NCBI GenBank assembly: GCA_016926795.1
Contig: JAFGNW010000172.1
Coordinates: forward strand, 1 to 32,757
Direction of reading: 5' to 3'
From: Candidatus Zixiibacteriota bacterium
GTDB taxonomy: Bacteria; Zixibacteria; MSB-5A5; GN15; FEB-12
Length of the DNA stretch: 32,757 nucleotides
Each line of letters begins with the position of its first letter. The first letter of the stretch is position 1. The notes below the pieces were generated by a model. The model was not told the DNA's origin. It searched no databases and worked only from the letters and a program-made list of their open reading frames with translations. Of the stretch, positions 13,795-32,000 are shown piece after piece. The position numbers were made by a program, and so were the translations under genes.

Positions 13795-15321
13795 TTACGG
13801 GCAGTCGATCATCGCGCTGTGCGACAGGTAGAGGTAATCAATCAGACGGGTAATATCCGAAATATCCGGTGTAGCGCCGCTGCCGTTGACATCGGCTTCC
13901 TGCATACAGCACAGCGGCAGATGACTGAGATAGAGAAAATCGATCAGGCGCGTAATATCGGAAATATCAGGTTCGTAATCGCCACTGCAATCGACATCAC
14001 CGCGGATACCCACGCAGCAGGTATCACAGATATCGTCGAAACCGTTACCGTTGTTGTCACCGAGACAAAGCGTACCGTCCCCGTTGTACTGACCGGTCAT
14101 AGAATAACAATCGAGTTCGGTGGAAATCAGGCAAAGTGTACCGCCCTCGATACAGCAGGCTCCCTGGGGTTCGATATCCGGGTTATTGATTACGAAGGCC
14201 TGGTTCATCTGGGCTCGGCAGGTATGTTCGATAATGCCGTTGATTCCGAAGTCGAAACCGCGCACGTCAACCGAGACCCATTCGGGATTATAATCCGGAA
14301 CCGTAATTTTGAATTCATATTGTCCGGGCATAAGCGGCCCGGAATAAACGATTTCCCTCCTTATATATAGCTCCTCATCTACTCCCGGCAAGGGGGGGAT
14401 TCGTTCGCCGGTCGGCGGGTTTCCTTCCAGCGACCATTCCACCGTTGACCAGTTAAAAGCCAGATCAAGCATACCCGGCCCCTCCATGTAAACGTATAAG
14501 ACCATATCTTTCATACGTTTTTCGTCAAGGGGATGGTCATAAAACCAGATATTCCACCATTCTTCTAAAGGATAAAAATACCAACCATCACCATAGGCGT
14601 CCGTACCCCAACCTTCAACGATCACACCGCCCAAATTCAGGCAGTAGAATTCGTTGTAGATGGTTTCCGCCGGTTCAACAATCGGCTGCCAGTCGCCGAC
14701 TCCGGAAGGGTCCTGCCAGACCGAGACATCGTTCCAGACATCGAGCGAAGTTTTCCAGCCCCAATACTGGTCCTGACCCGTCTGGTCCAATACCGCTGAT
14801 ATACCCAGCCAGTAAACCGTACCAAACTCCTGGAAAAAAGGTTCCGGTAACGAAGTGATATTGTACATCCAGTATTCCTGGTGATCGTTGTAGAAGTATG
14901 TTTCCGTAAAGGGGTCATACCAACCCTGGAATTTGGTTTCCGGAAGAAGTATCGGGTAAGCTACGAAATCCTCAACAAAAACTCTCCATAACAACTCCCC
15001 GGGTCGGCTGTAGGGAATCTGCGGTGGGTCGGCGGGAATATCTGCATAAATATTGATATAAAAACCGATTATATTTCCCGTATTCTCTCTAAACCAGGAA
15101 CCCCAGAAATGAATTTCCGTTATCGGCCCGGAAGCTGAGCAGCGCCAGTCATCGGCGATCATCATCGGGTCAGTAGCATTGATATCCCAGCCCTCTTCAT
15201 CGGGCAACTGCGGGAAATGCATTTTATGGCCATCTGCGGGAATCCAGTCGGCAATTACAGGGCTGCCGGCCAGAGCGACAAGGAGAAACAAACTCGTGAG
15301 GCAATAAATGATTTTTTTCAT
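13795..15321 (-). CDS. Secreted DUF7901-like protein with dockerin-like tail
   Basis: The ATG at 15321 is chosen because GGGAGG precedes it; the product has 508 residues (the frame is open ten codons further). A Sec signal peptide (about 1-24) is followed by a large beta-rich domain with MIADDWRCSASGPITEIHFW, then SRPGELLWR and GTVYWLGISAV. This resembles the planctomycete/FCB family I know as DUF7901 (number from memory; function unknown). Next comes a Cys-rich segment, GACCIEGGTLC to DDICD, then the shared 74-residue tail at 435-508 ending DCP. It is monocistronic between its own promoter and terminator. It should be exported, probably attached to or released from the surface; no enzyme motif is visible. 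Confidence 0.88.
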   Translation of the reverse strand: MKKIIYCLTSLFLLVALAGSPVIADWIPADGHKMHFPQLPDEEGWDINATDPMMIADDWRCSASGPITEIHFWGSWFRENTGNIIGFYINIYADIPADPPQIPYSRPGELLWRVFVEDFVAYPILLPETKFQGWYDPFTETYFYNDHQEYWMYNITSLPEPFFQEFGTVYWLGISAVLDQTGQDQYWGWKTSLDVWNDVSVWQDPSGVGDWQPIVEPAETIYNEFYCLNLGGVIVEGWGTDAYGDGWYFYPLEEWWNIWFYDHPLDEKRMKDMVLYVYMEGPGMLDLAFNWSTVEWSLEGNPPTGERIPPLPGVDEELYIRREIVYSGPLMPGQYEFKITVPDYNPEWVSVDVRGFDFGINGIIEHTCRAQMNQAFVINNPDIEPQGACCIEGGTLCLISTELDCYSMTGQYNGDGTLCLGDNNGNGFDDICDTCCVGIRGDVDCSGDYEPDISDITRLIDFLYLSHLPLCCMQEADVNGSGATPDISDITRLIDYLYLSHSAMIDCP

Positions 15322-15545: not shown

Positions 15546-16754
15546 TTACGGGCAGTCAGCCAAGGGGTTGTGACTGATATACAGGTAGTCAATCAGGCGG
15601 GTAATGTCGGAGATATCCGGCTCTCCCCCGCTGCCGTCGGCGTCACCCTCCTCTTCGCAGCATAACTCCAAATGAGTTATATACAGGAAGTCGATTAGAC
15701 GGGTGATGTCGGAAATATCCGGTTCCTCGATTTCCGAGCAATCCGCATTGCCCCGCAGGCCGTTGCAGCAGCCCTCACACGCGTCACCGATATCGTTCTG
15801 GTTAATATCCTCCTGGCCGGGATTGTAAGTCTCGATACAGTTGTCGCAGCTATCCCCAACCCCGTCGCCGTCGGTATCTTCGTTGAGCGGATTATACTTC
15901 TCAAGGCAATTGTCAGTCCACAAGAGGCTATTGTCTTCATCGGAGTCCAATTCGAATAATTCAAAACTGTCTTGCTGCGAGTTCGCGATGGCGATTACTT
16001 TGTCGCGTTCGTTATAACACAAATCCACAAGGATGCCGTAACCGGTGTTTATCAAATCCGGCGGCAGAAAAAAAGTACTGTCAAAACGGTGTACCGAAGT
16101 AACGGAACCCGTCCACGAAGAGACATAGAAGTTACGGTCCCTGTCCATAACGATATCATCAAGATTTTCCCAACCGGTGTTCACGATGTTGGAAACCGCG
16201 CCGGTGACGATATCAACCGCCTGAATATAAGGGTTGCCCCCGAAAGAGCACACCAGCAGGCGGTTTTTGACTGAATCCATTAGAATACCGCAGGGGGAGG
16301 TAAGGTCATGATTGACAAATACGGAATATGTCTGGGCGGCGATATCAATCTTCAGAATACGGCCGCCGGACCAGTCGGTGGCGTAAAAATAACCCTCGTA
16401 ATCATAGGCGATATCGTGAAAACCGCTGGTAGCTATCGGTAAATAGGACACAATCTCAGGTTCAGGGTCGTTCAGGCTGAGACCGACCAGAGTATTATTC
16501 ATCACACATACGTAAAGAATAGTGTCCAGAATGTACATATTGGCGCAATTGCCCAAGCCCTGGAAAAAATAAGTCTGGTTACCCTGGTCGTCAATTTGTA
16601 CGATTGAGCCGCCATCCCGCCAGTTTGACACCAGGTAACGATTGTTTAGGGAATCAAAAACCACTCCTTCCGGTTCGTTAAGGAGATTCTGAGCCGTTAA
16701 TGTAAGCGAGAAAATCAATAGAAACAACATTACCAGTGCTATCGTTTTGTTCAT
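15546..16754 (-). CDS. Secreted NHL/SMP-30-type propeller with TSP3 and dockerin-like tail
   Basis: This encodes 402 residues. The ATG has GGAG eight bases upstream, and a signal peptide (about 1-21, ending LTA-QN) follows. Residues about 23-270 show repeated propeller blades, e.g. LNEPEGVVFDSLNNRYLVSN, SGFHDIAYDYEGYFYATDW and ENLDDIVMDRDRNFYVSSW. These are typical of six-bladed NHL/SMP-30/strictosidine-synthase-like proteins. About 272-328 is a thrombospondin type 3 Ca-binding segment (EDTDGDGVGDSCDNC), then the shared tail at 329-402 ending DCP. The junction of propeller and TSP3 reads DSDEDNSLLWTDNC, a TSP3 unit that has lost its usual DGVxDxxDNCP spacing. It is an exported protein; ligand unknown. 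It has its own terminator downstream. Confidence 0.88.
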   Translation of the reverse strand: MNKTIALVMLFLLIFSLTLTAQNLLNEPEGVVFDSLNNRYLVSNWRDGGSIVQIDDQGNQTYFFQGLGNCANMYILDTILYVCVMNNTLVGLSLNDPEPEIVSYLPIATSGFHDIAYDYEGYFYATDWSGGRILKIDIAAQTYSVFVNHDLTSPCGILMDSVKNRLLVCSFGGNPYIQAVDIVTGAVSNIVNTGWENLDDIVMDRDRNFYVSSWTGSVTSVHRFDSTFFLPPDLINTGYGILVDLCYNERDKVIAIANSQQDSFELFELDSDEDNSLLWTDNCLEKYNPLNEDTDGDGVGDSCDNCIETYNPGQEDINQNDIGDACEGCCNGLRGNADCSEIEEPDISDITRLIDFLYITHLELCCEEEGDADGSGGEPDISDITRLIDYLYISHNPLADCP

Positions 16755-16941: not shown

Positions 16942-19458
16942 TTACGGGCACTCCGGGAGGTCCTTATGAGAAATGTACAAATGGTCGATTAAGTAGGTTA
17001 TATCCGAGATATCCGGCTCTCCCCCGCTGTCGTTTACATCGGCTTCCTCCGGACAGCACAGTTCTGCATGACTGATATAGAGATAATCAATCAAACGGGT
17101 AATATCGGAAATATCCGGGATTTCTTCTTCGGTACAATCGACATTGCCGGTGACCCCGAAACAGCAGCCTGACGAAATGTAGCTATAAGTGGTAACGGGA
17201 GCATCGGATGGATCCGAAGCGGGAGCGGTAACATCGTCCTCGGCATAAATATAATACAGCACTTCGCCGCTTTTCCCTGGCGGGATGATACCCCCAAAAA
17301 CGCTGTCGCCGACAGCTCCGTCGTGATGATTACCATCATCGTACATGACGAAGGGAGCAAAATCGCCGCTTACATCGGCATAGATAACCGCCAGACCGAT
17401 ATCGTTGTAATTATCCGTAATGCGAGCAGTAACTATTACAGAATCCTTCGAAGTAGGTGCTTCGGGAAATCGGGTCGTGTTCGTGATAACCGGAGGCAGG
17501 GCTTTAACTATAGTTTCGCAGATTTCGGTACGGTAATAATTACTTCTGGTAGAGGTCACGATATTGCCGTCGACAACCGGGAGAATCCCCGCGCCGAGAT
17601 AATCAGCGCCGGCGGCTATATATTCGTTTGCATAAGTACTCTTTCCGGTAACTCTTCGGCCTTCGATAATATCTGCCGCCGCCAGCAGCCGGACCCCTTT
17701 ACACCATGCCGATATTACTATACCGGCCTCATTGGCGTTTTGCAACAGCGCATTTACATCCGGATTGTTGTACAGATTACTATAGCCATCTCCGGGCATT
17801 ATCGATATGATATCAAATTGGGTGACATCGTCAATCTGGGATATCAGGGTGTCGACCGTTATCGACCGACAACCGATCAAAGCAGCATAATCGCATGGAG
17901 ACAGGTTCTCGTTAACCGACGCCAGAGTAATGTCCCAGCCATAAGCCTCGAAATGCTCCAGTATATTTAATGAATTATTCATGCAATAGTTGGCGCCGAA
18001 ATCATCATCGACAAGCACCAGGAGATTTATATCTTCCGGAGGTCTTCGGAAATCGCTACCCTTGTTTTCAAAAACAAAAACCGCTTCGGTTGCGGTTACA
18101 GCCATATCGAGATCGTTTGAATAAGTATAATTAACTGTCAACGTCCCGCCGTTTTCCGGAGCTGATGAAAAAGAAAGCCACCCGTCCTTCAGGTCGTAAC
18201 AGTAATTATTAATATATACCGGAACTCCATTAAAAATGACGGAATTTATTCTTTGTATATTATTATGATCCAGGTAGAACAGTTTTAAGTTGCCGTCGGT
18301 GGTGAAGACTTTCTGGGTATCGACCAGTCCGTCGTTGTCAAAATCGGCTACAGCCGCCTGCTGGGGAAATCTTTCGCCGGCATTTACCCACGTAAACCTG
18401 TCGGGCAGGTTACCGTCGATGTTTTCAAAAATGCCGAAGGGCGAATACCAGCCGCCGGCAATAAGGTCAAGGTCCCCGTCGGCATCCATATCGGCAAACT
18501 CCACGTATGCGGGCTCATTGTAATATTCGCAAGACCAGGAAGGATAGTCTTCGAGAGTCCCGTTATTATTTTTATAGACACAGAAATAGCCGTCGGTCAT
18601 CGGTGAAAAGCCACAGATAGCCACCGCGACGTCGTAGTAGCCGTCTTTATCTATATCTCCCACCGCCAGTTGCCGGCCGCCCAGAAAGGGTGATGAATAT
18701 GAAGGAGCTGTTTCCAGAACACCGTTATTATTATAATATGCACTCAAGGGCATGGTCTTAGCCACCATTACCAGATCGAGGTCGCCGTCCCGGTCCAAAT
18801 CGACAAAGGCGGCATCGTTGTAATTATGGGTGGCATCGGTTTCCCAGAACGGCAGAGTATCGAAAGTGCCGTTATCGTTCACATACATCTTGGCGGTAAG
18901 ATACTTACTCACCGCTGCGATACCTTCCGTAAAAAGAATATCCAGGTCACCGTCGCCGTCAGGGTCACCGGTAGTGCATGAGAAACCAACTGACGGTTTA
19001 GAATACCAGCTAGGAGTTTGCGGAAGACCGCCATCGTTCAGGTAGAAAACATGATATTCGTCCTGAAACCCGGTGCTTAACAAACCTAAAGAATTAACAA
19101 TAAGGTCGGGCTCGTTGTTTTTATCGAGGTCGGCTATATACAGATTACCGGCCGGCTGCACGTTCTCTGATATCCAGACGGAATCCGTCGAAAGTTCCCC
19201 CCCGATATTGAAAAATATTTTATTATGACCGCAATAGCTGTCAAGACCGCAGGCAATCGCCAGGTCAGGCCAGCCGTTACCGTCAAAATCAGCCCATCCC
19301 AAACCGACCGGATAACCTTCCTTAAGTTCATATCTTAAAGATCTTTGGAGGGTGATTTCAGCTGTCAGACTCCCCGCCAGGATAAATATAATCAATCCCA
19401 GCAGTAACATGAGCTTTATTACACTTTTTGCTGATAGTTTGATTCTATCTCTTATCAT
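16942..19458 (-). CDS. Secreted FG-GAP propeller fused to a DJ-1/PfpI-like domain, dockerin-like tail
   Basis: The second ATG (19458) is chosen because GGAGG lies six bases before it, giving 838 residues. After a signal peptide (about 1-33) come seven FG-GAP/VCBS Ca loops between 56 and 385, including DFDGNGWPD, DGDGDLDIL, DLDRDGDLDLV and DMDADGDLDLI. These form a beta-propeller. Residues about 477-655 resemble a DJ-1/PfpI domain: LLVLVDDDFGANYC at the start, the nucleophile-elbow candidate SAWCKG (Cys about 586), then IIEGRRVTG and VVDGNIVTS. An Ig-like domain (about 655-760, MYDDGNHHDGAVGDSVFGG) precedes the shared tail at 765-838. A possible promoter (TTGAAA-N17-TCTTAT) lies in the 58-base gap after the permease gene. 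Whether the DJ-1-like part is catalytic is unknown. Confidence 0.87.
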   Translation of the reverse strand: MIRDRIKLSAKSVIKLMLLLGLIIFILAGSLTAEITLQRSLRYELKEGYPVGLGWADFDGNGWPDLAIACGLDSYCGHNKIFFNIGGELSTDSVWISENVQPAGNLYIADLDKNNEPDLIVNSLGLLSTGFQDEYHVFYLNDGGLPQTPSWYSKPSVGFSCTTGDPDGDGDLDILFTEGIAAVSKYLTAKMYVNDNGTFDTLPFWETDATHNYNDAAFVDLDRDGDLDLVMVAKTMPLSAYYNNNGVLETAPSYSSPFLGGRQLAVGDIDKDGYYDVAVAICGFSPMTDGYFCVYKNNNGTLEDYPSWSCEYYNEPAYVEFADMDADGDLDLIAGGWYSPFGIFENIDGNLPDRFTWVNAGERFPQQAAVADFDNDGLVDTQKVFTTDGNLKLFYLDHNNIQRINSVIFNGVPVYINNYCYDLKDGWLSFSSAPENGGTLTVNYTYSNDLDMAVTATEAVFVFENKGSDFRRPPEDINLLVLVDDDFGANYCMNNSLNILEHFEAYGWDITLASVNENLSPCDYAALIGCRSITVDTLISQIDDVTQFDIISIMPGDGYSNLYNNPDVNALLQNANEAGIVISAWCKGVRLLAAADIIEGRRVTGKSTYANEYIAAGADYLGAGILPVVDGNIVTSTRSNYYRTEICETIVKALPPVITNTTRFPEAPTSKDSVIVTARITDNYNDIGLAVIYADVSGDFAPFVMYDDGNHHDGAVGDSVFGGIIPPGKSGEVLYYIYAEDDVTAPASDPSDAPVTTYSYISSGCCFGVTGNVDCTEEEIPDISDITRLIDYLYISHAELCCPEEADVNDSGGEPDISDITYLIDHLYISHKDLPECP

Positions 19459-19516: not shown

Positions 19517-20530
19517 TTAAAAATCGGGAACAAACTCTATCAGGCCGCTCAGCAGAAAGGTCATAAGGACGAGCCCGGTCAGGATAATAAAGGTCATTTT
19601 TTTCCCGATGAATTTAATCAACATTACCAGCGAGGTGATACATATCGATGTCGAAGTCAGTGAAAAAACAATGGCGGTGCCCATCGGCAACTGGCTGTGG
19701 GTCACAAAGGGTTTTAAAAACAGTACATCGGCACCGTTGCAGAAATAAACCGGCACCCCAATCAGAATAACCATGGCGGTACCCAATAAATTATTCTGAA
19801 AATTCAAATTCATAAAAAGATGTTTGGGCATAAATAGTTCCATGCCCGCCCCGAGCAGACCGGCCAGAATAACGTACGGTAATATGCCTTTGAAAATTCT
19901 ATAGGTCGACAGGTAAATGTCTTTAGTCACCCGGGGACAACAAACGGTAGTCTGACACCCCGTTAGAATTACATTAAACTCGTTTTTAGTCCTATTTTTA
20001 AAATAATCCGCTATATAACCGGCGCTTACAGCCAGGATAAAGGAAGAAATTATTCTCAACACGGTATATTGGATTCCCAGGACTGTCAAGGATACCGTAA
20101 TGATATAGGGATTTAAGAGAGGCGCGGCGACTACGAAAGTGATTATTGTCCTGAAAGGTATTTTATTTTCCAGGGTTTTAATCAGCGGCAAAGCTCCGCA
20201 GGAACAGACGGGAATAAGCGAAGCGTACAAAAAAGCGGTTGTCGGGTTGCTGGGTACGAACCGGCGCCATTTCAAAAAATACTTTTCCAGAAGGCCGGCG
20301 ACAAAAATCCCGACCAGCACTATTATTAGAAGCTCCACCACATTTTCATAAAAAATAAACAGCCATCGAGGTAAGAAAGAAAAGAGCAGACATTTTTCTT
20401 TGTTCTGGACGGAAATTCCAAAATAGGTCTGATAAACAATATCCAGCGATAATAAGATTATAGAGGAATATATCAGTAACCTGACCAGGTTATCGTTGGT
20501 TCTTAGAGGATGACTTCGAGTTAACAACAT
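19517..20530 (-). CDS. ArsP/SO_0444-like permease (DUF318 family)
   Basis: This encodes 337 residues with eight to ten membrane helices. The signatures IPVCSCGALPLIK (about 106-118), VVAAPLLNPYI and VPVYFCNGADVLFLKPF (about 255-271) match the PF03773 permease family. That family includes the organoarsenical exporter ArsP and the SO_0444-type Cu/Zn efflux proteins. A Cys cluster, GCQTTVCCPR (about 190-199), lies in the loop between the two halves and could bind a thiophilic metal. The substrate is not defined by sequence and no ars or metal-regulator gene is nearby. No Shine-Dalgarno site stands before the ATG. It lies upstream of the FG-GAP gene on the same strand, but the functions look unrelated. 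Confidence 0.85.
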   Translation of the reverse strand: MLLTRSHPLRTNDNLVRLLIYSSIILLSLDIVYQTYFGISVQNKEKCLLFSFLPRWLFIFYENVVELLIIVLVGIFVAGLLEKYFLKWRRFVPSNPTTAFLYASLIPVCSCGALPLIKTLENKIPFRTIITFVVAAPLLNPYIITVSLTVLGIQYTVLRIISSFILAVSAGYIADYFKNRTKNEFNVILTGCQTTVCCPRVTKDIYLSTYRIFKGILPYVILAGLLGAGMELFMPKHLFMNLNFQNNLLGTAMVILIGVPVYFCNGADVLFLKPFVTHSQLPMGTAIVFSLTSTSICITSLVMLIKFIGKKMTFIILTGLVLMTFLLSGLIEFVPDF

Positions 20531-20801: not shown

Positions 20802-21362
20802 ATGGTGAACGAACAGAACTCCTTTTTTGATATAAATTCTTTAGTAAAACAAGCCCAAAGCGGTGACAAAGTTGCGGAAAATGCCCTCCTCAAACATTTG
20901 CGTGAAAGTTTCCGCCTGGTTGTTCAACATAGAATATGGAACAATGCTGATACGGAGGATATCGTCCAGGACACCCTGCTGACGGTTTGCAGTAAATATA
21001 AGGATTTAAAAATTGAAGTCAGTTTCGCTGCCTGGGCCTACAAGATATTGAACCATAAAATAATGGATTATGTGAAGAGAAAAAAAATCCGCAGCCGCCT
21101 AGACAGAGACAGGTTTGAAGCTTCTCCCCCACTCCTGTCCGCCACCTCCAAACCGGATTTGAAAAAAAGGTTGCTGGATTGTTTCAAAAAAGTCAATGAC
21201 AGCAACATCCGGCAAGCCCGAATTCTTAATTTGTATTATCAGGGTTATTCTACCGAGGAGATTTGTAAAAAATTGAAAATTTCCAAAAACAATGCATATG
21301 TTCTTCTCAATCGAGCCAGAACGGCCTTGGAAAAATGCCTGGAAATAAAGGAACATAAATAA
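20802..21362 (+). CDS. ECF-type RNA polymerase sigma factor
   Basis: This encodes 186 residues. Region 2 spans about 15-95, with the core-binding signature NADTEDIVQDTLLTVCSKYK and FAAWAYKILNHKIMDYVKR for -10 recognition. Region 4 spans about 122-180, with a helix-turn-helix in YYQGYSTEEICKKLKISKNN followed by AYVLLNRARTALEKCL. There is no extra C-terminal domain. It directs RNA polymerase to a dedicated promoter set and should be held by the product of the next gene, whose ATG overlaps its TAA by one base. Both an ATG (20802) and a GTG (20805) could start; neither has a good ribosome site. Upstream 20531-20801 holds no gene; GGGAACC at 20661 is a weak ECF-like -35 candidate. Confidence 0.92.
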   Translation: MVNEQNSFFDINSLVKQAQSGDKVAENALLKHLRESFRLVVQHRIWNNADTEDIVQDTLLTVCSKYKDLKIEVSFAAWAYKILNHKIMDYVKRKKIRSRLDRDRFEASPPLLSATSKPDLKKRLLDCFKKVNDSNIRQARILNLYYQGYSTEEICKKLKISKNNAYVLLNRARTALEKCLEIKEHK

Positions 21363-23638
21363 TGAGTGAATGTACCGATAAAAAACTGGGCGCAAAACTA
21401 TATGCTTTCGAGCTGGGTCTTTTGAATGATGAGGAGCGCGAGGAATTTGAAATCCACCTGATCGAATGCCCTTTCTGTAAGAACCGGGCTTCGAAATTCA
21501 GCGAAGCCGCCGAGTTAATTCGGACCGATCCGGACCTGCGCGCAACCGTCGCCGACCCCAAGGTTGAAAAACCGGCGGAGAAAAAACGCTATACCCGGAT
21601 TATACGCTTTACTTTCGCCGCCGCAGCGATTTTGGTTCTGTTGATTTTACAGCCCTGGCAATTAGAATTTCACCGTACCCATGAAGTGGTGGCCGAGGAA
21701 AACTGCCTGGCTGTAATGTACTTTGAAAACCTGGCCGAGCCGGATGACCCCCGGCAATTCGGAGAGATTATCACCAACCTCCTGATAACTGACATTTCCG
21801 AATCACGCTATATCAACGTAATTTCCAGCCAGCGCCTTTATGATGTCGTCAGGGCGATGGATGTCGACAGTTCTTCCATTTTCAATAAGGAAACAGCTTC
21901 CCGGATTGCCGCTCAACTCCGGGTCAAATGGATGCTGACCGGCAGTATCGTACAAATCGAACCGAATATCATTATTACCACGCAGTTAAACGATGTTTCA
22001 ACGGGAAACGCCGTTATTTCCCATCGTTTGACCGCGGAGGCAGACGATGATATTTTTTCTCTGGTCGATAAACTGACGGTTTTTATCAGGAACGACCTGG
22101 CTTTGCCGAAAGCCGCTCTGACTGAATCCGATCCTCACATTGCGGAAGTAACCACTCATTCCACGGTGGCGTATCATTATTATCTGGAAGGAATAGCGAA
22201 CCTCAATAAGTTGTACACTACCAGGGCTGAAGAAAATTTCAGGGAAGCTCTAGCCTTTGACTCGACCTTCGCCATGGTTTATTACCATCTGGTTGAGCTG
22301 GGATATCCCGAATATATCTCGGAAGCCTTAAAATACTCTGACAAAGCCGGTCAAAAAGAAAAAATGTATATAAAAAGCCTGGCCGCGAGATTAAAAGAGG
22401 ATTTCGTTCTTTCCGAAAGAATACTGGAGGAATTATTACTTCGTTATCCCGATGAGAAGGATGCGCTGTATTCCCTGGCCGGGCTGAAATCTCAAAAGGG
22501 GCAATATGCCGATGCGGTTGATATTTATAAAAAAGTACTGGTTATTGACCCTTTTCATAAAATGGCTTACAACCAGCTTGCCTACACCTATAACAACATG
22601 GGCGATTTCGAAAACGCTCTGAAAGCAGTTGACCGCTATATCGCCATTGCCCCCGACGAGCCCAACCCGTACGATACTAAAGCCGAGCTGCTGACTTTAC
22701 GGGGTGACCTTGACCAGGCTATATCTTTCTACAAGAAGGTCCTTTCCATTAAATTTGATTTTAACAGCTATCAATCAGCTTTCCACCTCGGCCAGCTTCA
22801 GATATACAAAGGAGAATATGAGGCGGCCAAGAACACTTTCCAGAGGGTGGTCATCAACGGGGAGAGGTTCAGCCGCTCACTGGCCAGGACCTATCTGGCT
22901 GAAATTCCTCTCTACCAGGGAAAACTGGCACAGGCCCTTGCTATCCTGGGTGATGGTATCGTTGCTGACAGAATGGAGTTGGCCACCGATGGCCGATACG
23001 GCGACCGAGCCTACAAACACTTTATAAGAAGTATGATATATGCTGAGAAAAGCGCATACGGGGAAGCTTATAAGGAAATGGAGGAAGCTATTGAAACCCA
23101 TAATATGGCTTTCCCCAGAAGCCAGCCGGCTTTTCGCTGTATGTACGTTCAAATACTGGCTGAAGGGGGTGAATTCACAAAGGCCGAAGAATTGACCGAA
23201 GAAATCAAAGCCGATTACCTGGCCGGGATTAAACCGGCCGTGTCAGCCTACTGGTACTCGCTGGGTATTATGGAATATTACAGAAATAACTTCGAACTGG
23301 CGGTATCTTATTTGGAGAAATGTAAGGCGTCGGGAAATTATTACGATTTTAATTTCGACCTTGCCAGGGCTTATCAGATGCACGGTAATTACGACCGGGC
23401 AATCGTTACTTATCAAACTCAATTATCCGACTATCTGACACCCTGGCGACTGTACCTGGGCATCCGGTCGGTAAAGAGCTATTATTATCTGGCGCTTTCT
23501 TTAGAGGCAACCGGTCAGTACGAAACGGCCGCCAAATATTATTCTCAATTTCTCGATATCTGGAAAGAAGCCGACGAGGGCATTGAAGAAATCAATGACG
23601 CCCGGGAACGGCTGCGACGCCTGGAAAATAAATCTTGA
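21362..23638 (+). CDS. Anti-sigma zinc-finger membrane protein with FlgO/TolB-like domain and TPRs
   Basis: This encodes 758 residues. The cytoplasmic N-terminus has the zinc-associated anti-sigma motif H-x3-C-x2-C (His32, Cys36, Cys39), which normally grips an ECF sigma factor. One transmembrane helix follows (about 80-97). Outside it, residues about 112-245 resemble the FlgO/TolB-N/CsgG-like fold (ENCLAVMYFENLAEPDDPRQ, then SRYINVISSQRLYDVVRAMD and VKWMLTGSIVQIEPNIIITT). About 265-750 are TPR repeats in an alpha-solenoid (e.g. AVDIYKKVLVIDPFHKMAYN). Translation is coupled to the sigma gene. The fusion suggests that an extracytoplasmic TPR/FlgO-like sensor controls sigma release. It is much larger than a typical anti-sigma factor (about 200-250 residues). 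Confidence 0.9.
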   Translation: MSECTDKKLGAKLYAFELGLLNDEEREEFEIHLIECPFCKNRASKFSEAAELIRTDPDLRATVADPKVEKPAEKKRYTRIIRFTFAAAAILVLLILQPWQLEFHRTHEVVAEENCLAVMYFENLAEPDDPRQFGEIITNLLITDISESRYINVISSQRLYDVVRAMDVDSSSIFNKETASRIAAQLRVKWMLTGSIVQIEPNIIITTQLNDVSTGNAVISHRLTAEADDDIFSLVDKLTVFIRNDLALPKAALTESDPHIAEVTTHSTVAYHYYLEGIANLNKLYTTRAEENFREALAFDSTFAMVYYHLVELGYPEYISEALKYSDKAGQKEKMYIKSLAARLKEDFVLSERILEELLLRYPDEKDALYSLAGLKSQKGQYADAVDIYKKVLVIDPFHKMAYNQLAYTYNNMGDFENALKAVDRYIAIAPDEPNPYDTKAELLTLRGDLDQAISFYKKVLSIKFDFNSYQSAFHLGQLQIYKGEYEAAKNTFQRVVINGERFSRSLARTYLAEIPLYQGKLAQALAILGDGIVADRMELATDGRYGDRAYKHFIRSMIYAEKSAYGEAYKEMEEAIETHNMAFPRSQPAFRCMYVQILAEGGEFTKAEELTEEIKADYLAGIKPAVSAYWYSLGIMEYYRNNFELAVSYLEKCKASGNYYDFNFDLARAYQMHGNYDRAIVTYQTQLSDYLTPWRLYLGIRSVKSYYYLALSLEATGQYETAAKYYSQFLDIWKEADEGIEEINDARERLRRLENKS

Positions 23639-25084: not shown

Positions 25085-25399
25085 ATTGTCTTCTATGATT
25101 ATGAGACGGAACATCCGAAATAACGAGATATCGAAGCGAATTCTCTTCGCCCAACTCGACCATAATAATCAACACAACCGTATGATAGATAAGATGTCCT
25201 AAAATAAGATAATTATCAATAGAAATGTCAATAGTGACAAGCTTACCGGGCACAATAAAAACGAACAGATGTCACAGGTCGACCCGCATCAATTAAACCT
25301 CTTGCCCGAAAAATAATATCCCGTTACATTTCGTAAAATATTTTTAATTATAGTCGTTTGTTTGAACGATTCCTTTTAAGGTTTCATTAGAGATGTTTG
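25085..25399. other. Gene-free stretch between divergent genes
   Basis: I see no convincing gene in these 315 bases. On the minus strand TTGACA (25231-25226) could be the -35 of the broken gene, but no good -10 follows at the right distance. On the plus strand TTGCCC (25302-25307) and TACATT (25325-25330), 17 bases apart, could serve the DUF72 gene. A short inverted repeat, CGAAG-N8-CTTCG, is near 25135. An ATG at 25114 could be an alternative start of the broken gene. Confidence 0.4.
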
Positions 25400-26245
25400 A
25401 TGTTAAATCCTGAACTGATACGTATCGGCACCTCGTCGTTTTCTGAAACGGACTGGGTGGGTCCTTTCTATCCCCCCGGTGCCCGACCGGGCGATTTCCT
25501 GCCCCTGTATGCCCGGAAGTTCAGTACCGTCGAAATCGACGCCACCTATTACGCTATTCCCTCGAAAAGCACAGTTGACAGCTGGGTTCGCAAAACGCTC
25601 GATAATTTTCTGATTGCAGCCAAATTCCCCCGTTCCATAGTCCATGGCGGCGAAGGTCCCCGACCCGACCCGGAAATCGTGCTCGTGCCCGAAGCCACTT
25701 ACGCTCAGCGGGATATTTTCCTCGATATCATCAGTCGCCTGGGCAGCCGCCTGGGTCCGCTGCTGATACAATTTCCCTATTTTTCAAGAACTGCTTTTAA
25801 AACCGCGACGGAATTTTTTGCCAGACTCGATAAATTTCTAAGCGACCTACCTGAAGATTTCCGTTATGCCGTGGAAATCCGCAACCGCAACTGGCTGACC
25901 GAAGAATATGTCGCATTGTTAAAAAAGCACAAAGTCGCCCTGACCCTGGTGGACCAGGCCTGGATGCCTCACGGTGATGAAATCGAGCCGCGGTTCGACC
26001 CGGTCACGACCGATTTTGTCTATATTCGTCTGCTGGGGGACCGCAAGGAAATTGAGGCTATCACACAAAGCTGGGATAAGGAGGTCATCGACCGGCAGGA
26101 CCGCCTGGAACGCTGGGCCAGACTGGCTCTCAGGATTCAGGAGCGGCGTATCAAATCCTTGATATATGTCAACAATCACTTTGCCGGGCACGCCCCGACA
26201 ACCGCCCGTCGTCTCGAAAAAATGATTATCGAGATGAATTTATAG
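25400..26245 (+). CDS. DUF72 (YecE-like) family protein
   Basis: This encodes 281 residues from the ATG at 25400; a TTG one codon earlier is possible. The protein follows the DUF72 TIM-barrel-like family closely: IGTSSFSETDWVGPFYPPG at the start, FSTVEIDATYYAIPS, NFLIAAKFPRSIVHGG, LGPLLIQFPYFSR, YAVEIRNRNWL, and TDFVYIRLLGDRK near 210. Length is as usual for the family. The biochemical role of DUF72 is not established. It is probably cytoplasmic, as there is no signal peptide. It stands alone and converges with the C25 protease gene 53 bases downstream; I see no clear terminator in that gap. Confidence 0.93.
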   Translation: MLNPELIRIGTSSFSETDWVGPFYPPGARPGDFLPLYARKFSTVEIDATYYAIPSKSTVDSWVRKTLDNFLIAAKFPRSIVHGGEGPRPDPEIVLVPEATYAQRDIFLDIISRLGSRLGPLLIQFPYFSRTAFKTATEFFARLDKFLSDLPEDFRYAVEIRNRNWLTEEYVALLKKHKVALTLVDQAWMPHGDEIEPRFDPVTTDFVYIRLLGDRKEIEAITQSWDKEVIDRQDRLERWARLALRIQERRIKSLIYVNNHFAGHAPTTARRLEKMIIEMNL

Positions 26246-26298: not shown

Positions 26299-29031
26299 CT
26301 AATGACAGGCGGCGAGAGGATTATGCTCGAGATACAAATAATCTATAAGGGCGGTTATATCGGAGATGTCCGGGTCCCCCCCGCTGTCGTTGCAATCGGC
26401 TTCGGCCGGACAGCAGAAAGGAGCTCCGTGCAAATAAAGGGCGTCGATTAACCGGGTGATATCGGATATATCGGGATTTTCGAGTTCGGAACAGTTGGTA
26501 TTACCCCGCAAACCGATACAGCAACAGGCATCCCCGGTACCGTCCCCGTTGCTGTCCTCCTGGCCGGGATTATAGGCCGAAGTACAGTTATCACAACTGT
26601 CGGGAATACCGTCTTCATCATTGTCGACAGAGTCATCATAACCGGGACAGCGGTCACAGGCATCCCCGACCCCGTCGTCATCGGTATCGACCTGCAGCGA
26701 ATTAGCACTCTCCGGGCAATTATCACAATCATCCCCGACCCCGTCATCATCCCCGTCAGCCTGGTCGGGATTTGAGATTAAAAGACAGTTGTCACAACTG
26801 TCACCAATCCCATCTCCCTCGCTGTCTTCCTGAGCAGGATTGGCCCAAAACGGGCAGTTGTCGCAACTGTCGCCGAAGGTATCGATATCGCTGTCGGCCT
26901 GGCCGGGATTGTATACAAAGGGGCAATTGTCATTTTCGTCGCGTACTCCGTCGGAATCGGTGTCGATAACCAGGACTATTTCGATTGCTCCCTGATACGG
27001 GACAAAATTATGTTTGGTGACCGTAACGAGCATTTCCCCCTCATCGGCCAGCGCCAGGTTGACAACGGCGTCACCGTTGAAATCTGTCACCGCCCGCTCA
27101 TACACCTCGTTGTCTTTCCAAAGGCAAACAAAGGCACCGCTGACCTTTTCTACGGTGTTTTTTTCGACATGAACGGTCACCCACTCGGCCGCGGTTTCCA
27201 GTTGCGAGGGATGGGTAATGTCGAACAGCTCGGGAGCGGCGGTCCAGACGGGCATGGCCGGGTCACCCAAAAGGTTAAGGGTCCATTGCGAATACATCCA
27301 CATCGTATCATAGGATGGATTGTTGTTTTTGCTCCAGGCCAGAGCTTCGCCCAAGCGGTATTTATTCTCGACGAACAGCGCCCGCCACCATTCCCGGTCG
27401 AGCTCGGCTGACAGGGTGTAGGGTTCGCCGGTGTAAAACCAGCCGTTGCGGGTGTTACCGATAAAGGCCACGCCGGCCCGGTTATCGGATTCGATAACTA
27501 TATTTTCCCCGATACAGTCGTTATAATCCATCCGGTTGGCGTCACACCCCAGAGAATACATGACGAAGCACCGGTCGGTGTTGGTCAGCAGGGCGACATC
27601 GGTTGACGTCAAATCCTCACCGTGGTTGATATGACCGACCCCCAGCGAAAGATAATCACTGTGGTCGTAATGATTGACCAGATTCTGACCGGCGTTGAGA
27701 GCCGCCAGCAGGTCGGATTTGTGCAGTCCGGGCTCGCTGTCGTAAATTTTGACCGTCGGGCACCGGGCCGGGATAATTTCCCTCGCCAGCGAATCCTTCA
27801 TTTCTTCCCCGGCGGTAAGCGTATAGTAAGGCGGTTGCTCCGCCAGGGTGAGGTCCATTCCGACCAGGGTTACATTTTCGGGGTAACCGGACAGCGGTGG
27901 CGCGGTCTCGTATTGAAGCACCTTGTCGACAAAACGCGTAACCTGGGCGGAGTCCTCGGCCGTTACCCGCCCCACAAATACCTCCTGTACCCAGTCGTCA
28001 TCGAAATCGCCGTAATAAGCGTCGCTGGGAACGGCGTTGATGTTATAGACCCTGACCTCAAAGGGGATAATATCGTTCTCTCCCCCCAGGAGAAAATAGA
28101 GTGTGCCCCAGTCATTACGGGCGTCGATAATGAAGTTTCTGATTTTTTCCTGGTTGTCCGTCCCGGTATAAAGGCTGTAAATATAGTTGGTCGTAACCAC
28201 CGTATCGCGGAGACCTTTGCGGTTATGCCAGAAAATGAGCGGTTCGTAAAAAATCGCCAGGGCGCTGTCGGTTATTATGACGTGCTCAAATAAACCGTCG
28301 GGAAGGTCGGCGGTGGATTTGGTCGGAGCAAATCGGGCAACCGGATGAACCAGCTCGGGATTGACCACCAGCCCGGCTAAGAGATTTTGGATTTCGTCCC
28401 GGTTTTTCACGGATATTTTTTCCGGGAGATAGTCACCGCACTCATAGCCGTCCTCACCCTCTATAATAAACTTAAGGTTACGATTAATCGTTAACTTACC
28501 GGATAGGGGTTGATATTGAAAAGGAAAGATATGAATTACCGCCATACCCTGCCCGGCCAGGTCGTTTTGGGCGATAAGCTCAACCGCCTGCTCGGGGTAG
28601 GTTAAGTTCGATAAATAGATATCGGGAAGCGGTTCGATAAAATCGAACTCCTCGCTATCAAGGCCTATTTTTCGGGGATATTGCGAGGGCAATATTTTGA
28701 ATTCTCCGGGTTTGGTTGCGGTCTCGATTTCGACCAGACGAACGCGAAGCGCTCTCATCCCCTCCGGCAGGGCAACTCTGATTTCCTTAACCGGCATGAA
28801 AGGTCGGCCGGGGAGATTCAAAAAAGTGCCTCCCTTTAACGATACTACGTCATAACCGCCGTTTTTTTTGAAAAGGAAATCTTCATCGGAAAATTTGTAT
28901 TCCTGATAGACTTCGAAAGCAGAGGCACCTTCTTCAGCCCTCACCGGCAGAAAAAAACCGGAAGCAGCCAGCACCCAGAGGAAAAACAGCTTCACACAAG
29001 CGGTTGTATTTATAAAGCGCGTCCTTTTCAT
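26299..29031 (-). CDS. Secreted C25 (gingipain-type) cysteine protease with TSP3 rod and dockerin-like tail
   Basis: This encodes 910 residues. A signal peptide (about 1-32, ending VRA-EE) is followed by a gingipain-type propeptide region (about 35-225) and a peptidase C25 domain (about 245-595). Visible motifs are PSDAYYGDFDDDWVQEVFVG (335-354), NHYDHSD with candidate catalytic His454 or His457, and MYSLGCDANRMD with Cys496, the likely nucleophile. An Ig-like domain spans about 600-688. Residues 690-836 hold about six thrombospondin type 3 Ca repeats (e.g. DNCPESANSLQVDTDDDGVG), forming a stiff rod before the shared tail at 837-910, which ends ACH. The gene lies 32 bases behind the 1204-aa SBBP gene, so both are probably co-transcribed. 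Both catalytic residues look intact, so activity is plausible. Confidence 0.9.
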   Translation of the reverse strand: MKRTRFINTTACVKLFFLWVLAASGFFLPVRAEEGASAFEVYQEYKFSDEDFLFKKNGGYDVVSLKGGTFLNLPGRPFMPVKEIRVALPEGMRALRVRLVEIETATKPGEFKILPSQYPRKIGLDSEEFDFIEPLPDIYLSNLTYPEQAVELIAQNDLAGQGMAVIHIFPFQYQPLSGKLTINRNLKFIIEGEDGYECGDYLPEKISVKNRDEIQNLLAGLVVNPELVHPVARFAPTKSTADLPDGLFEHVIITDSALAIFYEPLIFWHNRKGLRDTVVTTNYIYSLYTGTDNQEKIRNFIIDARNDWGTLYFLLGGENDIIPFEVRVYNINAVPSDAYYGDFDDDWVQEVFVGRVTAEDSAQVTRFVDKVLQYETAPPLSGYPENVTLVGMDLTLAEQPPYYTLTAGEEMKDSLAREIIPARCPTVKIYDSEPGLHKSDLLAALNAGQNLVNHYDHSDYLSLGVGHINHGEDLTSTDVALLTNTDRCFVMYSLGCDANRMDYNDCIGENIVIESDNRAGVAFIGNTRNGWFYTGEPYTLSAELDREWWRALFVENKYRLGEALAWSKNNNPSYDTMWMYSQWTLNLLGDPAMPVWTAAPELFDITHPSQLETAAEWVTVHVEKNTVEKVSGAFVCLWKDNEVYERAVTDFNGDAVVNLALADEGEMLVTVTKHNFVPYQGAIEIVLVIDTDSDGVRDENDNCPFVYNPGQADSDIDTFGDSCDNCPFWANPAQEDSEGDGIGDSCDNCLLISNPDQADGDDDGVGDDCDNCPESANSLQVDTDDDGVGDACDRCPGYDDSVDNDEDGIPDSCDNCTSAYNPGQEDSNGDGTGDACCCIGLRGNTNCSELENPDISDITRLIDALYLHGAPFCCPAEADCNDSGGDPDISDITALIDYLYLEHNPLAACH

Positions 29032-29063: not shown

Positions 29064-32000
29064 CTACGGGCAAACCTCCAACGGAGCGTGTGAAATATAT
29101 AAGAAATTGATCAGGGCGGTAATATCGGAGATATCCGGTTCTCCCCCGCTGGCGTTGCCGTCCGCCTCGGGCGGACAGCACAGCGGCGCATGGCTGAGAT
29201 AGAGATAATCTATCAAACGGGTGATGTCGGAAATATCCGGCTGTTGTTGCTCCGAACAATTGACGTTACCCCTGTCCCCGATACAGCAACAGGCGTCGCC
29301 CACCCCGTCGCCGTTGGCGTCCTCCTGACCGGGATTGGGGTCGTCGACACAATTGTCTATATCATCGTAAATTCCGTCACCGTCGCTGTCGCTCAAATTC
29401 TTACACCCGGGCTCCAACGCCCCGATTAAAACCCCGCATTCGTTGAGAGGAAAAGCGGCGGCACAGGGAGACAGTGAGTCGATACTGTAATCAAGACCGG
29501 CCGTATCGCAGAAGAACGGGTCGACAGCGGTAATAAAATCGCCGTTATATTCGGTGGTGTCCGTATTCTCGTAGAAATTACTGCAGCTCAGGTTTAAATC
29601 GGCCGATGAGATGAGCGGTCCGTCGCCCCGATTAAAGGCGAAAATACTGTTTCTAACGATCAACTCCGTACCGACACAATACAACAGCGATTTGTCGTTG
29701 TTGTCGTTAATATGGCTGAGCGTAGCGTTTTCGATAATCATCGAGGAGAACAGGGAGGATACGGCACCACCCTTGTTGTTGGATTCATTCCCGTAAAAGA
29801 AACAGTTTTTCAGCAGGACCTTTTCCGGAGCGATGATACTGAACACACCCGCGCCGTCCTGGGCGGAATTATTTTTGAAAACACAATTATAAATAGAAAG
29901 GGCGGTTTTAACGAGGCACAAACTGCCGCCGTAGAGAGCCTGATTGTTATCAAAGACACAGTTTCTGATTATGGGTGAAGAAGCGGAATCGCACAGCATC
30001 CCTCCACCATGGCTGGCACCGTATATCGTCAAGCCGTAACCGTTGCGGATAGTGAAACCGTCCACCACAGCCGTGGTATCCTCACCGCGGTGAAAAGAAA
30101 GCCCCCGATGGGGTTCTGAGGGAGTACCCTCGCAGTCGATTACGGTGACCTCCGGACCGTCCTCAGCCAGCAGTATAATATTGCGACCGTCGAAATCCAA
30201 ATCCCGGTTACCCTCACCGGCATAAATCCCGGCGGCCACCAGTACGGTGTCGCTGTGCGACGAGGAATCGATAGCCGCCTGAATCGTGGGTGCATCACCC
30301 AAACCGTCGGCAGTGACATACCACCGGCGGGGAAAATCGCAGGCATCCCCCCGGTGATTGCCGTTGGCGTCCTCCTGGCCGGGATTCCAGGTCTCCGGGC
30401 AGTTATCGCAGATATCGCCAACCCCGTCACCGTCGGTATCTTCCTGATCGGGATTGAAAATAGACGGGCAGTTGTCATCCGGACAGACATTTCCCGGATT
30501 ACCGGGGTCACCAAAACCGTCACCGTCAGATTCGACACAGACCGCATCCGTGATTTTTACCGCAAAGGCATCCTCTCCGATTTGTGTCGGTTTGAAAGGG
30601 TCTATCACCGGCAGGTTCGAAGAAGCGGTGGTTCCGGTTATATAAGCGTCACCGCTGTTATCGACCGCGACCGCCCGGCCCGTTTCAGAACCGCTTCCCC
30701 CGTAAAAGGTGCTGTACACCAAACTGCTTCCCGCGATATCGAGCTTGGTTATGAAAGCATCCGGTCCGCCGCCGGGCAATTGAAACGGGTCAATCACCGG
30801 AAAATCGGAGGAACCGGTTTGCCCGGTTATATAGACAAAGCCCCCGTCATCGAGAACTAGGTCAAAAGCAGCATCATCGCCGCTGCCGCCCAGAAAAGAA
30901 CTGAAAACAAACTGGGAACCGGTTGGATTGAACCGCGTAACGAAAGCATCGTATCCCCCCGCCAGGGTTGTTTGAAAGGCACCAACATTACGGAAACCCG
31001 GCGAGTTGGTTTTTCCGCTCACACATACATATCCAGCCGTATCGACAGCTATGGCGTAACCGAAGTCCGAGTTGTCATTCCCCAGGAAGGTGCTGTACAA
31101 TAAACTGTCTCCAGAAATGGTAAACCGGGAAACAAAAACATCATACTCACCGGCATTTTTATTCTGAATCGGGTTACTGATAGGAAAAACAAACGATTCG
31201 GTATAGCCGGTTACACAGGCCCGATACTGGTCATCGACAGCGATATCGCAGGCAATATCGGTTTCCTCGCCACCGAGGTACGTGCTGAAGACAAGCGACC
31301 CGCCCAGGGTATCCAGTTTGGTCACGAAGGCGTCGGTTTTGGCCTGGTCGGTCTGATAGGCGTCGACCAGGGGAAAATCGTTGGAAACCGTCTCCCCGGC
31401 CAGGTAGACAAAATCCGAATCATCGACAGCAATTCCCAAAGCCTGGTCAAAACCGCTGCCGCCCAGATAAGTGCTGAATATCAGGGCGTCACCAGCACCG
31501 GTCAGTTTGGTCACGAACACATCGACCCCGTCAAAAACAGCCTGGTACGGATTGTACAAAGGGAAATCCGCCGAATGGGTTCGACCGGTCAGATAAATGT
31601 TTTCGGACGCGTCCAGAGCGATATCGAAAGCCCAGTCATCAGCTTCGCCGCCCAGGTAGGTGCTGAAAAGCAGTTCGTCGCCGGTCGCTGACAATTTCGT
31701 CAGGAAAATATCATACTCGGCCAGGTTGGTATCCTGGAACGGGGCTTCAAGGGGAAAATCAAGCGAATAAGTCGAGCCGGTTACATAACAGGCACCGGCG
31801 GCGTCCACCGCCATTCCGTAACCTTCCTCCGGGTCGCTTCCCCCCAGATAAGTACCGAAACTTATTACGGGATCGATAATCACCGGCAAGTCCGGATCAT
31901 AATTTTCACTCAATTCAAAACCAAAACTGTTATCTGAAATTAAAGAATAACGACTTTTCAGGGATACTTTTTCACCCCGCACAATCTGGTAAACCACCGG

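Follow-up and report, generated by a model that had tools for sequence, protein, structure and literature searches.

An exported clade of DJ-1/PfpI-superfamily domains with Asn in the position of the supporting Glu and a second invariant cysteine

What can a DJ-1/PfpI fold do outside the cytoplasmic membrane and without the acidic residue that supports its cysteine? The fold is normally cytoplasmic; DJ-1 has been studied intensely, its supporting Glu is regarded as essential and laboratory mutants of this residue (E18) were made to break function. The question is raised by one gene in a stretch of 32,757 nucleotides from a Candidatus Zixiibacteriota bacterium (genome G000), which in its whole length is referred to here as the window. 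A preliminary description, read from the letters of the DNA, had proposed that this gene encodes a signal peptide, a seven-loop FG-GAP propeller, a DJ-1/PfpI-like domain whose early Glu appeared replaced, an Ig-like stretch and a shared tail. The span it gave (16942-19458) is correct and the gene lies on the minus strand: an ATG at 19458, with GGAGG six bases 5' of it, yields a protein of 838 aa, whose residue numbering is used throughout (the mechanical open reading frame extends to 19473 and, with 843 aa, is 5 residues longer). The protein is laid out as follows:

16942..19458, minus strand: exported FG-GAP::DJ-1/PfpI protein of 838 aa (Pfam; GGAGG before ATG 19458)
19357..19458, minus strand: signal peptide, residues 1-34 (KLMLLLGLIIFILAGSLTA; from the sequence and a hydropathy peak)
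18274..19326, minus strand: FG-GAP propeller with seven DxDxDGxxD-type loops (PF13517 E 8.4e-27, PF01839 E 2.6e-10; loops counted by eye)
18049..18273, minus strand: small beta domain in the interval from propeller to DJ-1 domain, found in L036 and L037 too (boundaries approximate)
17494..18030, minus strand: DJ-1/PfpI-superfamily domain, residues 477-655 (PF01965 E 2.3e-16; AlphaFold2 pLDDT 94.1; Foldseek)
17989..17991, minus strand: Asn490, where the family has a conserved Glu (DJ-1 Glu18; HMM alignment to YhbO; Asn in 40/45 members)
17893..17895, minus strand: Cys522, clade-specific second cysteine (45/45; not in the classical relatives aligned)
17701..17703, minus strand: Cys586, nucleophile-elbow cysteine (45/45; strand-helix junction in the model)
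17167..17493, minus strand: Ig-like region (partial match to choice-of-anchor X, NF041940; low-confidence model)
16945..17166, minus strand: dockerin-like duplicated tail, about 90 copies across the genome (genome search)

On both sides of the DJ-1 domain this layout agrees with the preliminary description. Upstream, the signal peptide shows as a hydropathy peak and Pfam recognises six FG-GAP_3 stretches (E 8.4e-27), the seventh Ca-loop being seen by eye in the sequence; downstream, the Ig-like stretch is followed by the shared tail. The window tail has no Pfam match to dockerin type I (PF00404), which the relative L036 does match, and the source genome encodes three cohesin-like domains above the Pfam cut-off. 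The tail of the DJ-1 protein probably serves to anchor it on the cell surface or on a partner. Tails of this duplicated, Cys-containing and dockerin-like kind form the C-terminus of five secreted window proteins (with this copy taken as 16945-17175, the remaining four lie at 15549-15776, 13798-14022, 26305-26526 and 29067-29291, all on the minus strand) and recur at about 90 places genome-wide. A gingipain-like C25 peptidase (window 26299-29031, minus strand) combines the shared tail with thrombospondin-3 repeats and gives weak matches to PorU-type sortases.

That residues 477-655 follow the DJ-1/PfpI pattern is borne out by profile and model alike. All the motifs quoted for it are present, and Pfam places DJ-1_PfpI (PF01965) on residues 501-640 with E 2.3e-16 and 60.5 bits against a cut-off of 26.6, so the match is not due to chance. 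Given the window domain aligned to 27 relatives taken from public genomes (alignment A4), AlphaFold2 produced a confident domain model (pLDDT 94.1, pTM 0.91) of a flavodoxin-like alpha/beta sandwich, in which Cys586 stands where strand E111-115 passes into helix H116-124 (domain model numbering), i.e. at the nucleophile elbow to which it had been assigned; the full-length model (pLDDT 63 overall) is reliable for the DJ-1 domain only. Both models show a monomer; in DJ-1/PfpI enzymes the active site is completed by a dimer or hexamer. The 50 best Foldseek matches in the PDB are solely of the PfpI, DJ-1, YhbO, DJ-1d, SAV1875 and isocyanide hydratase types, each with a probability of 1.00, and the entries closest by sequence profile are plant DJ-1d, a two-domain cyanobacterial DJ-1/ferritin-like protein and YhbO. 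Since these best folds are all of DJ-1/PfpI/isocyanide hydratase type, we reject a ThuA-like or generic class I GATase-like ligand domain, which had been put forward as an alternative. Residues 477-655 are best explained as an extracytoplasmic member of the DJ-1/PfpI superfamily that belongs to a distinct exported clade.

Members of this clade were searched in Zixibacteria, GTDB release 220 (one genome per species), the Asgard phylum and Bacteroidota, and membership was defined by an A4 profile score above 170 bits, the next-best sequences reaching 116 bits or less. The resulting 45 non-redundant members split from classical cytoplasmic relatives with 98/94 support in a maximum-likelihood tree, a count that leaves out three intermediate Asgard rows. 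They are spread over about ten lineages, including Zixibacteria, Bacteroidota, Cloacimonadota, Gemmatimonadota, KSB1, Marinimicrobia, Asgard archaea and Thermoplasmatales, and their frequency is low (10/132 Zixibacteria, 16/227 Asgard-phylum genomes and 1/395 sampled Bacteroidota). One subgroup, with AWC(K/R) elbows, unites the FG-GAP proteins of Zixibacteria with Asgard archaea and one Bacteroides MAG; the other, mostly with C-A-G elbows, holds bacteria with C-terminal propellers and one Thermoplasmatales archaeon. A distant exported Asgard relative (L083 1102-2121, minus strand) has Glu (AAE) at the Asn490 position, lacks Cys522 and sits on a long branch; it is possibly an intermediate. In the open-access literature we found no description of PfpI with FG-GAP, of a secreted PfpI with a propeller or of an Asgard DJ-1/PfpI, and the exported clade, a variant within a known superfamily, is apparently undescribed.

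Could the signal be false and the protein cytoplasmic after all? We reject this, because hydrophobic N-terminal segments occur in all members examined with a complete N-terminus, lipoboxes such as LTGCGS or MTGCSN are found in several Zixibacteria members, and most Asgard members possess a C-terminal membrane segment followed by basic residues. At the C-terminus of many bacterial members stands a type IX-like sorting tail, an FlgD-like domain or a dockerin domain. Most members are fused either to one of two unlike propellers or to a C-terminal membrane anchor, and pairing with a propeller takes three forms: an N-terminal FG-GAP fusion (window, G059, G020), a C-terminal propeller of the GGYII-GYT type (many bacteria and the Thermoplasmatales member) and a propeller encoded by a separate adjacent gene (G111; L032 6923-8383). 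Whether homologues share the FG-GAP fusion had been raised in the preliminary description, and they do: the homologue in G059, another Zixibacteria genome, is 46% identical over 619 aa, a region that covers both propeller and DJ-1 domain, and G020 has the same fusion, split across two contigs, which disposes of a chance or artefactual fusion. As DJ-1 domain and propeller recur together in three ways, we argue that they work together, and on our best reading the propeller has a binding or presentation role in the exported protein.

Within the domain, Cys586 and Cys522 are found in 45/45 members, and conservation is also strong in the elbow motif, at Arg and Gly positions close to it and at Gly488 (45/45), Glu612 (43/45) and Arg638 (36/45). 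The early Glu, on the other hand, is replaced throughout the clade as had been suspected: position 490, which an HMM alignment sets opposite the family Glu of YhbO, is Asn in 40/45 members, Cys in 3, Leu in 1 and Glu in 1 (L054). Tyr491, which a MAFFT placement offered as the Glu counterpart, was discarded on the grounds that 491 varies, that 490 is Asn in 40/45 and Glu in L054, and that the YhbO alignment points to Asn490. In three Asgard members (L091, L092, L094) position 490 carries Cys, so that a third cysteine lies close to the presumed site. The classical enzymes are thus distinguished from the clade by their Glu18 equivalent; since this Glu defines the classical enzymes only, membership in the superfamily, which the PF01965 score, the modelled sandwich and the elbow cysteine indicate, stands.

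Comparison with DJ-1 strengthens the earlier suspicion of altered chemistry, as the clade has no counterparts of Glu15 (Gly488 instead), Glu18 (Asn490 instead), the second Gly of the GG motif (which varies) or Pro158 (whose region differs). In DJ-1, hydrolysis of cyclic phosphoglycerate requires Glu15, Glu18, Cys106, Pro158 and the Gly74-Gly75 oxyanion hole, and activity is abolished by E18A and E18Q (PMC12135873). That the domain is a canonical glyoxalase, deglycase or hydrolase of the DJ-1/PfpI kind, merely exported, may be argued from the fold, the Pfam match and the fact that all 28/28 aligned members match TIGR01382; the window domain, however, scores 72.7 bits there, under the cut-off of 139, and the residues replaced are the very ones needed for DJ-1 hydrolysis, which makes a canonical enzyme very unlikely.

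The same mixture of likeness and difference emerges from other known systems. With the PfpI/PH1704/YhbO proteins (TIGR01382; 1g2i, 1oi4, 8r3n) the clade shares the fold (TMq 0.75-0.83), the elbow Cys, the DGN(I/L)(V/I)T strand and the AGA motif, but it is exported, has Asn for Glu and an extra invariant Cys522, and carries Lys, Arg, Ala, Ser or Thr rather than His after the elbow Cys. With DJ-1/YajL (TIGR01383, the DJ-1 glyoxalase/hydrolase subfamily, where the window reaches 28 bits against a cut-off of 131) it has in common the fold, an elbow Cys without a subsequent His and, in many members, the C-A-G elbow, whereas export and the loss of Glu15, Glu18, GG oxyanion motif and Pro158 set it apart. 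Asn replaces the same Glu in engineered SAV1875-E17N (4y1g), which is within the ten best Foldseek matches, and in DJ-1 E18N; these are laboratory mutants of cytoplasmic proteins, while in the clade the Asn occurs naturally and is kept in bacteria and archaea alike. Plant DJ-1d (4ofw, 3uk7), the top PDB sequence match (E 1.8e-24 with the A4 profile), has tandem domains and retains the classical active site, and we know of no report of a signal peptide or a propeller in it.

Cys522, for which the classical cytoplasmic relatives aligned offer no equivalent, comes after the second strand, in about the part of the domain where DJ-1 has Cys46 (the alignment is uncertain by a few residues). In several members Cys522 and Cys586 are the sole cysteines of the domain, so Cys522 is there either a free second thiol or the partner of Cys586. 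Any internal disulfide in these members must join the two, and a non-catalytic domain may be envisaged whose exported fold is locked by Cys522-Cys586 and which recognises a ligand together with the propeller. Its exported location and the loss of Glu and oxyanion motif are consistent with such a binding domain, but a structural disulfide has no need of an elbow cysteine, the elbow motif with its adjacent Arg and Gly positions is still strongly conserved, and the source organisms often seem to come from anoxic sediments; we consider a non-catalytic domain of this kind unlikely. The elbow cysteine has been preserved in both bacteria and archaea, which speaks for thiol chemistry having been retained.

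Clues to what the exported domain may work with come from its neighbours in the window:

19517..20530, minus strand: ArsP_1-family permease, directly upstream and co-directional, with a gap of 58 bp to ATG 19458 (PF03773 E 2.5e-30)
20802..21362, plus strand: ECF sigma factor, divergent (PF07638 E 6.4e-11; 47% identical homologue in the same place in L115)
21362..23638, plus strand: TPR protein with an N-terminal zinc-finger anti-sigma-like segment (44% identical over 754 aa in L115)

With 106 bits against PF03773 (cut-off 32) and a CSCG motif, the upstream permease belongs to the ArsP methylarsenite permease family, but it is over no NCBIfam equivalog cut-off, the best names (SO_0444 Cu/Zn, SaoE) lying far below, and by its sequence it is a putative transporter. 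Orthologues (48-55% identity) are found in three more Zixibacteria genomes, and all of these permease genomes (4/132, the window's own included) are among the 10/132 with the exported DJ-1 domain; under independence this gives p 1.7e-5, which is only rough because the four genomes are related. The permease adjoins the DJ-1/propeller locus in three genomes (G000, G111, G020): G111 has DJ-1, propeller and permease in this order on a single strand, and in G020 the beginning of an FG-GAP protein that matches the window gene comes after the permease, at the contig end, and the DJ-1 part is found at the start of another contig. In G055 the permease itself lies at a contig end. The ECF sigma/TPR pair is divergent from the permease in two genomes, those of the window (G000) and G020. 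Close to the contig end in G020 the FG-GAP reading frame is broken (L115 10708-11530), probably by an assembly error. A DUF72 gene near the permease/DJ-1 locus in the window (25397-26245, plus strand) is 57% identical to one in G111 (L032 9588-10463, minus strand), and this shared neighbour is perhaps due to chance. In G059, the DJ-1 domain is followed by a second secreted domain, possibly GATase-like, that starts ILIVDDDRGDPYQYENVYRDDL / ILIVNDDHLPPPYSWDYDAEGL (C-terminal part of L036 4450-7908; L117 3-1364) and that adjoins the permease in a Gemmatimonadota genome.

We reject the permease as a universal partner of the clade: its orthologue occurs in 0/227 Asgard-phylum genomes, 16 of which have the domain, 6/10 domain-positive Zixibacteria are without it, and in a Gemmatimonadota genome with four clade members the orthologue (53%) is not adjacent. 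Where the two do meet, their proximity bears on a further option, in which Cys522 and Cys586 form a two-thiol site that binds a thiophilic species, for example trivalent organoarsenic or a soft metal, on the outer side of the membrane, the domain acting as scavenger or sensor alongside an ArsP-type permease. Since ArsP exports methylarsenite and other trivalent organoarsenicals (PMC6205960), such a site is a serious rival, and it would suit the invariance of both cysteines (45/45), the additional Cys at 490 in three Asgard members, the family and CSCG motif of the neighbouring permease and the ECF sigma/TPR partner nearby. PF03773 is, however, a broad family in which the best NCBIfam names fall far below cut-off, no ars genes were found among the window proteins scanned, and Asgard members do without the permease; on balance we doubt that metalloid binding is the role of the domain.

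We favour, with a probability of roughly 0.45, an extracytoplasmic thiol enzyme with a rebuilt active site, which is presented by its propeller and in Zixibacteria is accompanied by a permease under ECF-sigma control. Cys586 would act as the nucleophile in catalysis, attacking some electrophilic small molecule or adduct on the outer side of the cytoplasmic membrane, with Asn490 standing in for Glu as hydrogen-bond partner and Cys522 serving as a second working thiol. As the residues of the DJ-1 hydrolase (Glu15, Glu18, GG, Pro158) are not conserved, this catalytic role is extrapolated from the cysteine alone. In Zixibacteria, the adjoining permease and sigma-factor genes hint at an envelope response, in which the permease, controlled by the ECF sigma factor, may carry this compound or a related one across the membrane, with processing on the outside. 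To see in all this a novel extracytoplasmic DJ-1-fold enzyme class of bacteria and Asgard archaea, marked by Asn plus two Cys, by a propeller partner and in Zixibacteria by an ECF-sigma/ArsP-type module, is a more tentative proposal. A natural clade that combines the change from Glu to Asn with a second invariant Cys and with export is a test of what the DJ-1 fold does without its Glu, and the permease and sigma-factor neighbours put the role of the domain within direct experimental reach.
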